NCBI GenBank assembly: GCA_937941455.1 | Contig: CALDHM010000014.1 | Coordinates: 1 to 44,706, forward strand | Length of the DNA stretch: 44,706 nt | Source: an uncultured Pirellulaceae bacterium | GTDB lineage: Bacteria > Planctomycetota > Planctomycetia > Pirellulales > Pirellulaceae | Direction of reading: 5' to 3' | Shown: positions 33,333-37,723 of the stretch, piece after piece | Layout of the letters: the number at the start of each line of letters is the position of its first letter | Position numbering within the stretch: the first letter of the stretch is position 1 | Program-made: the position numbers and the translations under genes | The notes under the pieces: model-generated | The model's input: the letters and a program-made list of their open reading frames with translations, nothing else | Databases searched by the model: none | What the model was told of the DNA's origin: nothing

Positions 33333-35117
33333 TTAATTGTCGGTCGAGCTGGTGTTGATCAGCGGACCGGCGGATCCGCGGCCCCCTTTGAGTTCAGCTT
33401 GGGCTCGCTCGGCCTCGGCAGTCACTTTCGCTTCTGCGGCCTCTTGTTCCTGAGTCCAATCGACCCTGCGCCGCGACAGTCCGATCTTGCGATCTTCGGT
33501 ATCGACACGCAGAATTTTGACCTCGATTTCCTCGCCGACTTTGACAACCGACTCAGGATTATCGACCTTGTGATCGGAGAGTTCGGAGATGTGAAGCAAT
33601 CCCTCCAGGCCGTCTTCCAATCCGACGAACACACCAAACGTGGTGATTTTCGTGACTTTGCCCTTGACGATTTGGCCCGGCTGATAGCGGGTGGGGATAT
33701 CGGTAGCCCAAGGGTCGTTCGACATCTGCTTCATTCCCAGAGCGATGCGGCGGCGTTCGGTATCGACGGCCAGAATTTTGCATTCGACCTCGTCCCCTTT
33801 TTCGACCATTTCGCTGGGATGGCTGATTTTGCGAGTCCACGACATGTCGGACACATGGAGCAAGCCATCAATACCGTCCTCGAGTTCGATAAAGGCTCCA
33901 TAGTTGGTAAGGTTGCGGACCTTGCCGCGGACCACTTTGTCGACCGGATAACGTTCCTCGATGTGGTCCCAGGGATTTTTCTGGGTTTGTTTGATCCCCA
34001 GGGACATTTGTTCGCCGGCGCGATCGACGCTCAGCACGCAGACATCGATTTCCTGTCCGATTTTGACAAGATCTTGCGGATGGTTGACCCGCTTTACCCA
34101 GGACATTTCGCTGATGTGGACCAAGCCCTCGATGCCCGGTTCCAATTTAACGAATGCACCGTAATTCATCACGTTGACGACTTCGCCGCGATGGATGCTG
34201 CCGGGCGGATACTTCTCCTCGACGTGGTCCCACGGGTTGGGGAGAAGCTGCTTCATCCCTAGGGCGATTTTCACTTTTTCGCGATCGACATTGAGTACCT
34301 TGACCTCAATCTCCTGGTCCATGCTGACCATTTCCGAGGGGTGGGAGATTCTGGTGTGCGCCATGTCTGTAATGTGGAGCAAGCCATCGATGCCCCCCAG
34401 GTCGACGAAGGCGCCGAAGTCGGCGATGTTTTTGACGATCCCTTTGCGGACCTGGCCGACTTCCAAGGTTTCCAGCAGGGATTGTTGGGCCTTCTGGCGT
34501 TCCTTCTCGATCAGCGAGCGGCGGCTGACCACGATATTGCGACGCTGCTCGTCGATTTTAAGGACTTCACACTGCAGTTCCTGGCCGATGTATTCACCGA
34601 TATCGCCTGGACGTCGAATGTCGACTTGGCTGGCGGGCAAGAACACTTGTACCCCGATGTCCACCAGCAAACCGCCCTTGATTTTGCGGGTGCATACACC
34701 TTTGACGATGTCCCCTTCCTTGACCTTGGAGATCACGTCGATCCAATGGATGATTTGGTCTGCCTTCTTCTTGCTGACCGTGATCAGGCCGTGGCCTTCC
34801 TCGACGGTACCGGTTTCATCCTCGAGGTCCTCGATGAGCACTTTGATTTGCTGTCCGACTTCAGGGGGGGGCTCATGCGGCTCCCATTCGCTGCGCGGCA
34901 GGGTTGCTTCGCTTTTGAAACCGATGTCGACAACGACTGCTTCGTCGTCGACGCGCACGATTTTGCCAGGAACGATTTCGTTGATTTGGAAATTAGCTTG
35001 GCTGTCGCTGTCATTGGCATACAGATCGACCAGATCATCATCGGATTGAAAGAGTCGGTCGAGTTCGTCAGCGATTTTTTGGTCTTCCAGCGAGCGAATC
35101 AGAATACGATTTACCAT
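33333..35117 (-). CDS. rpsA: Ribosomal protein S1 with six S1 domains
   Basis: Binds mRNA and recruits it to the 30S subunit. A protein of 594 aa with six S1 OB-fold domains (about residues 45-115, 125-195, 210-280, 295-365, 385-455 and 470-540), each carrying the strand GAFVDLxxGIDGLLHISDMS type; domains 3-6 keep this RNA-contact pattern best, as in E. coli S1. The acidic start is followed by a tail rich in Ala and Glu. Start ATG 35117 fits the family; upstream codons are not S1-like. A run of eight G at 34864-34871 lies in the coding region (Pro-rich EPPPEVG). A strong terminator follows. Confidence 0.93.
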   Translation of the reverse strand: MVNRILIRSLEDQKIADELDRLFQSDDDLVDLYANDSDSQANFQINEIVPGKIVRVDDEAVVVDIGFKSEATLPRSEWEPHEPPPEVGQQIKVLIEDLEDETGTVEEGHGLITVSKKKADQIIHWIDVISKVKEGDIVKGVCTRKIKGGLLVDIGVQVFLPASQVDIRRPGDIGEYIGQELQCEVLKIDEQRRNIVVSRRSLIEKERQKAQQSLLETLEVGQVRKGIVKNIADFGAFVDLGGIDGLLHITDMAHTRISHPSEMVSMDQEIEVKVLNVDREKVKIALGMKQLLPNPWDHVEEKYPPGSIHRGEVVNVMNYGAFVKLEPGIEGLVHISEMSWVKRVNHPQDLVKIGQEIDVCVLSVDRAGEQMSLGIKQTQKNPWDHIEERYPVDKVVRGKVRNLTNYGAFIELEDGIDGLLHVSDMSWTRKISHPSEMVEKGDEVECKILAVDTERRRIALGMKQMSNDPWATDIPTRYQPGQIVKGKVTKITTFGVFVGLEDGLEGLLHISELSDHKVDNPESVVKVGEEIEVKILRVDTEDRKIGLSRRRVDWTQEQEAAEAKVTAEAERAQAELKGGRGSAGPLINTSSTDN

Positions 35118-35467
35118 TGAGTTCTCAGTTGCAACGATTCGGTAGCATGAGTTCTGGCACCGAACAGTCACGATGGGGTTGCACCAAACCAACCGCGCGG
35201 GTGGTGGTGACAGGGGTGAAGGAACCGTCCAAAACGATCCAAAATGTTAGCAAATACCGCTCTTTTCTGCAACTGGCACGATCTCAACGCAGTTCGTCAG
35301 GTGGCCGAACAGGTATTCCCGGCGGCCGCTGCCAGATTGATGAAATCCTTGACAACGGTCCGGCAATGTCGCAAAAAGCGTTCGAATTGGCGTTGTCTTG
35401 ATGATTAGGAGCGGCAGGAATTGTCGAAATGGGACGTTTTGGGAGGCTCGCCGGGTCAATTTTCAGA
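35118..35467. other. Intergenic region between rpsA and the RNA unit
   Basis: 350 bases that must hold the rpsA promoter on the minus strand. No hexamer pair stood out and no frame has coding character. The RNA unit begins at its right edge. Confidence 0.4.
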
Positions 35468-35497
35468 TTGCTCGAAACTCCAAAGTCTGAGTAGAAT
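35468..35497 (+). promoter_or_regulatory. Promoter-like sequence for the structured RNA unit
   Basis: TTGCTC at 35468-35473, an 18-base spacer and TAGAAT at 35492-35497 (five of six to consensus). A start near 35504 would give a transcript of about 285 bases ending at the terminator at 35744-35788. Confidence 0.45.
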
Positions 35498-35615
35498 ACA
35501 AAGAGTTCGCATTCGCAGTGCGAGTAACCCGTTTCGAGGCGCTGAGGCAACTTTCTTCTTTAACGGCAATTTTGTTGCCTCACCGCCAGCACCATTAAAG
35601 AAAGGAGGTTGATCT

Positions 35616-35654
35616 GTGAATTCTGACTGTACTAGCCGAGGTGGCGTGGCCTGA
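35616..35654 (+). CDS. 12-codon leader-like frame with an extended Shine-Dalgarno
   Basis: GTG 35616 starts a frame of 12 residues (NSDCTSRGGVA after the start) ending at TGA 35652-35654. AGGAGG lies at 35603-35608, seven bases from GTG, and the complementarity to the 16S 3' tail extends over AGAAAGGAGGT, then after one extra T resumes as GATC. A site of this strength would be wasted on a non-translated sequence. The frame overlaps the 5' side of the GGTGGC stem, so ribosome passage would open that stem. Confidence 0.35.
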   Translation: MNSDCTSRGGVA

Positions 35655-35743
35655 CGGCCGCCGGCGGGTTGCCAGCAGGCAAGCCACCGTCACTTCGGTT
35701 TTTTGGCGGCATCCCGGATGCTTCCCTTAAAACCGTAAATCCT

Positions 35744-35788
35744 GAACCGCTCAGCGTCGGCTACCGTCGGCTGAGCGGTTCTTTTTTT
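35744..35788 (+). terminator. Strong Rho-independent terminator of the RNA unit
   Basis: GAACCGCTCAGC (35744-35755) pairs perfectly with GCTGAGCGGTTC (35770-35781), a 12-bp stem with a 14-base loop, followed by seven T. No coding frame of normal length lies between the promoter-like site and this terminator. Confidence 0.8.
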
Positions 35789-36065: not shown

Positions 36066-36284
36066 ATGCGTCGGCTCATCGTCGCAGTGCTTCTGGCAAT
36101 CGCTCTCAGCAGCAACGTCGGATGCTTTTTGCCAATTTATGACGCTCATCCGGCAGTTCGAGCGCGACAACTGATCTACACATCAGACAATTTGCGGGCC
36201 TTGCGAGAGGAATGGCATCGCTTCTGGTTTCTGGACATGCCAGACCACATGTCGCCGATTCGCACCCATGGCGGCATTATTTAA
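36066..36284 (+). CDS. Small lipoprotein of a probable planctomycete family
   Basis: A protein of 72 aa. The signal ends in LSSNVGC with the lipidated Cys20. The mature part is 52 residues: an Arg-rich opening (AVRARQLIYTSDNLRAL) followed by EEWHRFWFLDMPDHMSP and the tail THGGII. Similar short lipoproteins with an EEWxRFWF-type core are, as I recall, common in planctomycetes. Function unknown. GGGAGG lies eight bases before ATG 36066, which fixes the start. It is monocistronic by position. Confidence 0.75.
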   Translation: MRRLIVAVLLAIALSSNVGCFLPIYDAHPAVRARQLIYTSDNLRALREEWHRFWFLDMPDHMSPIRTHGGII

Positions 36285-36757
36285 TGCCGCGGTATCCGAT
36301 TTAAGTAACCGATGACACATTAGTCTCCCTTGCGGTCGACGTCACAAACCGCAGGGCAACTACGCTGACGAACTGCAACCGGATCATCTGAAAACGAGCA
36401 CGGAGGCCGACGCCGTCGCTCGTTCTTTGGCTGCGCCCTTGCGGGATTGCTGAATGGTCGTCGATTGACGAAAGTGAGTGGGTGGCTTACGGTAAATCGA
36501 CTGTGGGAATCAACCCGTCCTCCGTGGAGCCCGGACACTAGGTTTTGTTCCAAAACGACTGGCCGAAACGCGTTCGCGTCCGGTTTTCGTGAGAACCACG
36601 GGTGGGTTTTGGCACAAAGTCTCCCTCGTCGAAAAATGTTCTCGGGCGCACGCTCGCAGTTTTTGCGGGGCGAACAAAGGCTCAAAACTAAACGAACGAC
36701 AATAAACGTAATGCCTGGAAAATATCGATAGGCAGACGAATCTACTTGCGAGATGCG
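36285..36757. other. Intergenic region before trpS, nothing recognised
   Basis: About 470 bases. A plus-strand frame at 36447-36731 is open but has no ribosome-binding site and its composition (many Arg, Trp and Ser in odd order) is not protein-like. No tryptophan leader or T-box was seen ahead of trpS. Confidence 0.4.
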
Positions 36758-37723
36758 ATGAAAGTTGTTTCAGGAATTCAGCCGACTGGACGGCCCCATT
36801 GGGGGAATTATTTCGGAGCGATCCGCCAATACATCCAACTGCAAGATGAAGAGCAGGCGTTTTACTTTATCGCCAACCTGCATGCGTTGACGACGGTTCG
36901 CGATCGGCAGGTCATGGCCGATTACACGCTGAATGCCGCCATCGATCTGTTGGCTCTCGGCTTGGACCCGAACCGGGCTGTGCTGTTCATTCAGTCGGAC
37001 GTGCCCGAAATCAGCGAATTGTGCTGGCTGTTGTTGTCGGGAACCAGCATGGGGTTGCTGGAACGTTGCGTGTCGTACAAGGACAAGGTTGACAAAGGGC
37101 TGGCCACTGTGGCCGGGTTGTTCACCTATCCCGTCTTGCAGGCCGCCGATATTCTGGCCTACGACTCAGAAATCGTGCCGGTCGGTCAGGACCAAACGCA
37201 GCACATCGAGGTCTGCCGAGATATCGCCCAAGCGTTCAATCATCAGTTCGGAGAGGTGTTTGTGCTGCCCCGGGCGAAGGTCTTGGCGGACAGTGCGAAA
37301 GTTTCGGGGATCGACGGCGAGAAAATGTCCAAGAGCTACAACAATACGATCGAGATTTTCGAATCCCCGAAAGAGATGCGCAAAAAGGTCATGCGGATCG
37401 CCACCGACTCACGCCCCATGGAGGAACCGAAGGATCCGACGAACGATCATCTGTTCCAGCTCTATTCTTTATTCGTGGGGGACAGCGAACGCGAAGCCAT
37501 GGCCGCCAAATACCGAGCGGGAGGATTCGGTTACGGTGAAGTCAAAAAGGCCATTGCCGATGCTGCCGAAGCCTTCTTTGCCGAGGCACATCGCCGCCGC
37601 ACCGCATTGGTCGCTGATCCCGGCGCGGTGCGCGCGATCTTGGCCGACGGGGCCGCGAAGGCCCGAGCCAAAGCGCGAGAGGTGCTGACGCGAGCCCAAA
37701 CAGCCTGCGGCATAAAATACTGA
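36758..37723 (+). CDS. trpS: Tryptophanyl-tRNA synthetase
   Basis: Charges tRNA-Trp. A class Ic synthetase of 321 aa with the ATP-binding signature [17 protein letters not shown] (HWGN in place of the HIGH motif, residues 14-17) and KMSKSYNN at 189-196. The helical [18 protein letters not shown] segment is the usual tryptophan site. Start ATG 36758 matches the family; TTG 36746 would add four residues. It is a single gene; the next gene converges on it. Confidence 0.94.

Follow-up and report, generated by a model that had tools for sequence, protein, structure and literature searches.

rnTrpL of Sinorhizobium is a dual-function attenuator sRNA whose 14-codon frame yields a functional leader peptide, peTrpL; the available part of its description adds that this leaderless RNA corresponds to the trpE attenuator (PMC10117765). 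In Caulobacter, two earlier-predicted ncRNAs are translated, according to the accessible portion of another report (PMC4117421). The Rhodopirellula-1 motif appears in a table row of PMC2864571 that lists it for Proteobacteria and Planctomycetes, with a 'y' in a column that we take to be cis-regulatory, and gives it no Rfam accession. The Rfam family nearest to the element described here is the alphaproteobacterial sRNA family CC2171 (RF01867), and the literature on it, as far as its text was available, yielded nothing on its function. Searches of the literature on planctomycete sRNAs and structured RNAs returned nothing that we recognised as the element; no paper was found on Rhodopirellula-1 RNA by name, and none that joins 'perfect Shine-Dalgarno' with sRNA.

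The element lies in a 44,706-nt contig of an uncultured Pirellulaceae bacterium (GCA_937941455.1, CALDHM010000014.1), the whole of which is here called the window. Like rnTrpL, it reads as a small RNA with a short frame; unlike rnTrpL, it comes with a promoter of its own and a long leader, has an extreme Shine-Dalgarno (SD) sequence and precedes no conserved gene. It resembles tmRNA in being an RNA with a short internal frame, and the tRNA-like domain and tag frame of tmRNA were not found in it. tmRNA was rejected as an identity: ARAGORN detected no tRNA or tmRNA in the window, and a separate 185-bit tmRNA match lies elsewhere in the genome. The Rhodopirellula-1 motif, which may be the same RNA or another, is like it in occurring in Planctomycetes, a likeness taken from the table row.

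At the gathering score, Rfam found nothing in the window. CC2171 reached 31.6 bits in a relative's locus (L057) against its gathering cut-off of 75 bits. When CC2171 was run on 31 genomes of the window's family, something appeared at E ≤ 1 in 14, falling on the element in seven of these, and none of the 31 passed the cut-off. CC2171 has in common with the element an extended SD (GAAAGGAGGTGATCCAGTG), a GTG start, a short frame, a structured 3' part and a terminator-like end; it differs in its peptide (MSHC...), and its loci showed no counterpart of the 5' hairpin H1 by eye in the four that were read. By the searches made, in which the Rhodopirellula-1 motif (2010) was compared by its table row alone, the element is a new RNA family.

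Layout of the element

Read directly, the element forms a transcription unit of its own, about 285 nt long, at 35468–35788 on the + strand; it runs from promoter and H1 through a second hairpin region, the extended SD and a 12-codon frame to a three-helix domain (P1–P3) and a terminator. It is flanked by rpsA (− strand, start codon at 35117; ribosomal protein S1, named from reading of its sequence) and a trpS-like gene (frame 36746–37723). Its features are as follows.

35468–35497, + strand: promoter, −35 TTGCTC (35468–35473), 18-base spacer, −10 TAGAAT (35492–35497); read in the sequence
35506–35524, + strand: H1, 5'-end hairpin with CGC in the loop; from covariation
35540–35596, + strand: H2, second hairpin region; from predicted folds and the consensus fold of 62 sequences
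35599–35614, + strand: extended SD AGAAAGGAGGTTGATC; read in the sequence
35616–35654, + strand: mini-frame, GTG (35616–35618), 12 codons MNSDCTSRGGVA, TGA (35652–35654)
35640–35688, + strand: P1–P2–P3 domain around the stop codon, GGTGGC (35640–35645) with GCCACC (35683–35688); from covariation
35662–35667, + strand: hexaloop CGGCGG of P3
35696–35735, + strand: H4-like hairpin, CGGTTTT (35696–35702) with AAAACCG (35729–35735); read in the sequence
35744–35788, + strand: intrinsic terminator, 12-bp stem (35744–35755 with 35770–35781), then seven T

The 291-nt segment was predicted to fold at −122.7 kcal/mol, compared with a mean of −96.8 (sd 4.8 kcal/mol, z −5.4) for dinucleotide shuffles, 0 of 200 of which were as low. 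The analysis confirmed that the element is real, beyond chance, and a stand-alone unit is well supported at the level of sequence comparison.

An earlier sequence-only reading of this DNA had named promoter-like hexamers, a 12-codon frame behind the SD, the stems GGTGGC/GCCACC and CGGTTTT/AAAACCG, and a terminator made of a 12-bp stem and seven T. Each of these was read again in the window: the hexamers TTGCTC and TAGAAT, 18 bases apart, agreed with a promoter recovered by motif search on relatives; GGTGGC/GCCACC proved to be part of the covarying P1–P3 domain; and the terminator was clear by eye. The window promoter was absent from the list of a fixed-rule hexamer scan. The H2 loop is predicted to be able to pair in the window with TTAAAGAAAG upstream of the SD; by eye, the proposed pairing of a hairpin loop with AAGAAAG was present in the window and in L093, its nearest relative, and not in most other rows. 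An attenuator-like arrangement, ACCG..CGGT followed by a T-rich run at 35686–35704, did not generalise: by eye it recurred in L093 only and in none of the listed rows from other genera, so it looks local to the closest relatives.

A small frame at 36066–36284 (MRRLIVAVLLAIALSSNVGCFLPIYDAHPAVRARQ...), lipoprotein-like by eye, lies between the element and trpS.

Homologues in related genomes

Homologous segments in related genomes were found by blastn and by two covariance models. Blastn at E ≤ 0.01 hit 10 of 40 genomes, with that of the window counted in; the matches L008–L010 were judged to be chance. R1, a model of the core built from seven sequences, matched 193 of the 241 genomes of the window's family and 133 of the 159 better assemblies, with one match per genome and two rows with two. 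No R1 match was obtained in 48 of the 241 (26 of them better assemblies, the same-genus G004 included).

The second model, R2, was built from 20 hand-picked sequences, and its matches were counted at E ≤ 0.01. In the order it matched 75 of 146 genomes and in the phylum 33 of 294, partly weakly and near the E limit; 16 genomes of another family of the class (f21) were among those with a match. The 13 matches outside the class were all weak (best E 3.8e-5), and the nine of them that were readable each had the extended SD followed by a start codon, which is ATG in L164, and by a stop 9–13 codons on. An H1-like hairpin was seen by eye in one of these nine (L163). R2 also matched at full length in two named Phycisphaerales records (L172 and L224) and weakly in a deltaproteobacterial bin (L232). 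On 14 alphaproteobacterial genomes it found nothing at E ≤ 0.01, the best (0.07) being a Bradyrhizobium element, and plasmid records contained no match to the element. Since R1 and R2 both cover the SD and frame region, SD strength and the presence of a frame among the matches are partly selected. H1, the promoter and the terminator lie outside both models; like the P1–P3 domain and the mini-frame they are conserved, and the neighbouring genes are not.

In three loci of the phylum outside the class (L155, L159 and L160), a repeated GGAGTCCGGCGGC-like motif stands upstream of the SD, at the expected place of H1.

The family supplied 84 loci, of which 76 were used for the frame, promoter, terminator and neighbour counts after eight close copies had been left out. 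For the upstream alignment a further 14 close copies were dropped, leaving 62.

Covariation of the stems

H1 was analysed in 39 of the 62 non-redundant upstream sequences, picked for alignability. All seven of its pairs changed on both sides, a count reached by 3 of 500 shuffles, and 96.3% of the cells were paired (0 of 500 shuffles). The covariation score was 0.614 compared with 0.295 in shuffles (0 of 500 reached it), and it was at most 0.171 when the stem was slid.

P1–P3 was examined in an alignment (A5) of 20 sequences hand-picked from the 76. In it, 89.3% of cells paired, 9 of 15 pairs changed on both sides, and none of 500 shuffles reached any of five measures, a result that is favoured because the structure was drawn by hand on the same alignment. 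Automatic consensus folds were poor on another alignment (A3) and on the 76-row core alignment. P2 was the weak part, its first two pairs being broken in 11 and 6 of the 20 sequences, and all 20 rows carried the P3 hexaloop YGGCGR. Thus, stems of both regions covary by these counts against shuffles. In other genera the H4-like hairpin takes the form CTCG..CGAG, often with the anti-SD GATCACC inside.

A further pairing, P0, which would join the sequence that follows H1 to the one that precedes the SD, is not claimed. The best that the window offers is 3 bp; the mean over species' own sequences was 5.79 bp, compared with 5.22 for permuted ones (maximum 5.69), and at least 6 bp were found in 26 of 61, compared with 21.5 (maximum 33).

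Pairing of the Shine-Dalgarno sequence

The 16S tail used for comparison was that of two relatives, G630 and G029, in whose genomes the places found look like 16S ends, running GGCTGGATCACCTCCTTTCTAAGG. GGATCACCTCCTTT was present in six of the nine relatives' genomes searched and absent in three. Against this tail the window's SD forms 11 contiguous pairs, which agrees with the 11 or so bases of complementarity claimed earlier; L093, too, reaches 11 pairs, and in both the SD contains an extra base relative to the 16S complement (T in the window). Across the 76 elements, the Watson-Crick run had a median of 12 (range 7–16), and the run with G-U allowed had a median of 13 (range 9–21). Runs of at least 12 with G-U allowed occurred in 64 of the 76, compared with 1 of 3000 random 24-mers of the window. 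The genome assembly of the window contains a single perfect copy of AGAAAGGAGGTNGATC; with up to two mismatches there are six sites, the element included, and one for the reversed control.

The start site or SD was mostly paired in 58 of 61 predicted folds, an uncontrolled raw count. Its main partner lay downstream in 28 folds, in the frame in 16 and upstream in 14. For 99 elements, pairing of the SD with its own downstream part had a mean of −13.44 kcal/mol, compared with −12.85 for the downstream parts of other species (0 of 2000 permutations as low as own) and −11.60 for shuffled parts. The gain is small but consistent; relatedness is uncontrolled in it, and species vary in the partner used. 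GATCACC, which serves as the downstream partner in many rows, is a copy of part of the 16S tail, placed inside the CTCG..CGAG hairpin. Such anti-SD-like letters were found in 42 of the 99 elements and were not evident in the window.

The mini-frame

A frame was present in 100 of 100 chosen elements, which comprised the 76 family elements and 24 of 41 loci from the order and phylum; among the 41, five loci were set aside as truncated and two as near copies, as were L153 and nine loci from other classes. The search accepted only frames of 8–18 codons at offsets 10–13. Within these limits, a distance of 11 or 12 bases separated the start from the first G of GGAGG, and the start codon was GTG in 90, TTG in 10 and ATG in none. 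Lengths were 13 (80 elements), 14 (14), 12 (3) or 15 codons (3), and the stop, at one place, was TAG in 40, TAA in 36 and TGA in 24. In 76 of 76 family elements the first in-frame stop fell at codon 12–15, and in the other two frames the first stops scattered. We conclude from this pattern that the mini-frame is very probably translated.

Among 65 distinct 13-codon frames, C5 was kept in 60, S7 in 56, R9 in 53, G10 in 63 and G11 in 56. Codons 5 (TGT) and 7 (AGC) are nearly constant at the third base, suggesting that part of the conservation acts at the RNA level, and G-G is also fixed by pairing because it sits in a strand of P1. The Cys was lost in some members of the order and class (L134, L136, L140 and L145), and QRGG was lost as well in members of other classes (L155, L156, L157, L159 and L160), while the SD, the short frame and the stop stayed. 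Length changes before P1 did not fall cleanly into multiples of three: they placed 51 elements in one phase and 25 in another, in a pattern that has alternatives one base apart.

Promoter, terminator and neighbouring genes

A motif search on the 62 non-redundant upstream sequences, the window's included, recovered a two-block promoter motif, CTTGCC and NATAAT, with an information content of 10.7 bits (best of four runs), compared with 5.2–5.4 in four single-run shuffles. The blocks were 17 or 18 bases apart in 52 of the 62, and in 46 the motif preceded the first H1 pair by 10–12 bases. A strict TTGNNN/TANNNT rule was satisfied in 10 of the 76, compared with 2.95 in shuffled sequences. A stem search found terminators in 68 of 75 loci, compared with 5.0 in shuffles; the window was among its seven misses. 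Sequence comparison thus assigned the element its own promoter and terminator, as expected of a dual-function small RNA.

The largest cluster of neighbours was rpsA, in 11 of 76 loci; the next reached 8, and trpS 5. The counts are lowered because some loci span only about 1.5 kb on each side. rpsA lay upstream on the opposite strand in nine of its 11 loci and downstream on the same strand in two (L045 and L063). With its commonest neighbour in 11 of 76 loci, the element is not the leader of one gene, and a role as leader of rpsA or trpS as a general rule was rejected. We therefore take the element, on these sequence grounds, as a putative gene of its own rather than a leader. In the window, rpsA (33333–35192, − strand) stands divergently beside the element, as in eight other loci, and this arrangement is perhaps the older one.

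Alphaproteobacterial loci with the same extended SD

A scan of contigs for GAAAGGAGGTGATCYAGTG gave at least 119 stretches, 80 of which were made into loci (L165–L244), mostly alphaproteobacterial by title. CC2171 scored 5 of 16 loci scanned, all with a frame of the MSHC type. The extended SD followed by a mini-frame was found in these loci, a feature noted here and not part of Rfam's definition; CC2171-like loci therefore seem to have mini-frames as well. In the five, R2 covered 30 bases in four (L204, L205, L230 and L238) and 43 in L213; its 3' domain was absent from them, and a 3' structured domain shared with CC2171 was not found. Some other alphaproteobacterial loci matched most of R2 weakly, such as those of Bradyrhizobium, L187 (24.2 bits, E 0.0015) and L185 (21.8 bits, E 0.0055). 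An anti-SD copy of at least 7 bases followed the start in 27 of the 80 listed loci, compared with 5.9% of shuffles.

The mini-frames of the 80 loci listed were MSHC-like (36), LExxVGT-like (26), HLAGIAR-like (10) or others (8). LExxVGT-like frames had 18 codons in 26 of 26 listed and HLAGIAR-like frames 14 in 10 of 10, and all three stop codons occurred in each of the three types among the loci listed. The eight others include one frame of 57 codons and one shifted MSHC frame: L233, from Brevundimonas, has one base more after the start, and its MSHC frame is not read. In 27 of the 80 listed loci (L165 and others) the start is preceded by a YhhQ-like frame, whose end lies at a median distance of 84 bases, and in 22 it is followed by an ArfB-like peptide-release frame, whose beginning lies at a median of about 175 bases; both names come from reading one sequence each. 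A link of these neighbours to ribosome rescue is possible.

Discussion

The homologues in relatives and the covarying stems uphold the proposal of an undescribed regulatory RNA, and the conserved promoter motif, mostly 10–12 bases ahead of H1, would fit a discrete 5' end. The companion proposal, a leader-peptide unit, held for its conserved mini-frame and failed on the gene that it should lead: no conserved downstream gene was found, and a terminator follows. We consider it about an even bet (probability about 0.5) that the element is a stand-alone mini-mRNA or dual-function sRNA whose start site is closed by its own fold and opened by ribosomes. The gating mechanism that we infer would work as follows. 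The RNA would fold so that the start site is covered, in many species by a downstream anti-SD and in others by the frame itself or an upstream hairpin. Free ribosomal subunits would compete for the site through the SD, whose contiguous run of pairs with the 16S tail has a median length of 12, and would use the weak GTG or TTG start. A ribosome on the short frame would open P1 and P2, which adjoin the stop codon, and the state of translation would decide between two folds and hence RNA stability or target binding. The element would then be a sensor of translation-initiation capacity. A weak start after a very strong SD, a stop inside P1–P2–P3 and a frame covered by one or two ribosomes are what suggest a fold that reports on initiation.

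Alternatively, the element could be a gene for a functional micropeptide of 12–15 residues (..C-T-S-Q-R-G-G-x-x), its RNA structures only stabilising or tuning the message. C5, S7, R9, G10 and G11 are indeed constant among the distinct 13-codon frames and the stop codon varies in identity; however, G-G lies in a P1 strand, the C and S codons are near-invariant at the third base, and some members of the order or class lose the Cys, and members of other classes QRGG too, while SD, short frame and stop persist; we hold a peptide-centred gene to be unlikely. A decoy for the 3' end of 16S rRNA that titrates 30S subunits, with the frame incidental, would account for the long runs of pairing in 64 of 76 elements compared with 1 of 3000 random 24-mers, but it has no need of a conserved start, a frame and an in-frame stop that uses all three stop codons; we regard it as improbable. 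A cis-acting role as leader or attenuator for the gene that follows seems to us very unlikely: the short frame, the alternative hairpin at 35686–35704 and the two loci with rpsA downstream on the same strand speak for it, and against it are the terminators in 68 of 75 loci and the small rpsA cluster, mostly upstream on the opposite strand.

The element might instead be a divergent planctomycete branch of CC2171. This would fit the full-length, sub-threshold match in one of five loci scanned (L057), the weak matches falling on the element in 7 of 31 family genomes, the mini-frame after the same SD in CC2171-scoring loci, and the weak R2 matches over about 102 bases in the two Bradyrhizobium loci, whose type CC2171 did not score. 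On the other hand, all 31 genomes stayed below the cut-off, R2 covered just the SD and start (30–43 bases) of the five CC2171-scoring loci, and no H1 was seen by eye upstream in the four that were read; such a branch seems to us a long shot.

Beyond the stand-alone mini-mRNA or dual-function sRNA that we favour for the element itself, a wider 'ribosome-gauge' class of RNA spanning several phyla is conceivable, though we hold it to be doubtful. Its members would have an SD complementary to nearly the whole 16S tail, a self-cover by anti-SD letters, and a tiny frame whose translation switches the fold. The Planctomycetes and the Alphaproteobacteria (CC2171 and the counterparts in Rhodobacteraceae and Bradyrhizobium) would then be two branches or two inventions. 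The results also suggest a conserved mini-frame in CC2171, which is catalogued as an sRNA.

The element, unrecognised by the Rfam 15 models in the loci tested, matches more than 200 planctomycete genomes. If the gating mechanism is true, bacteria would possess an RNA devoted to gauging how many initiating ribosomes are available.
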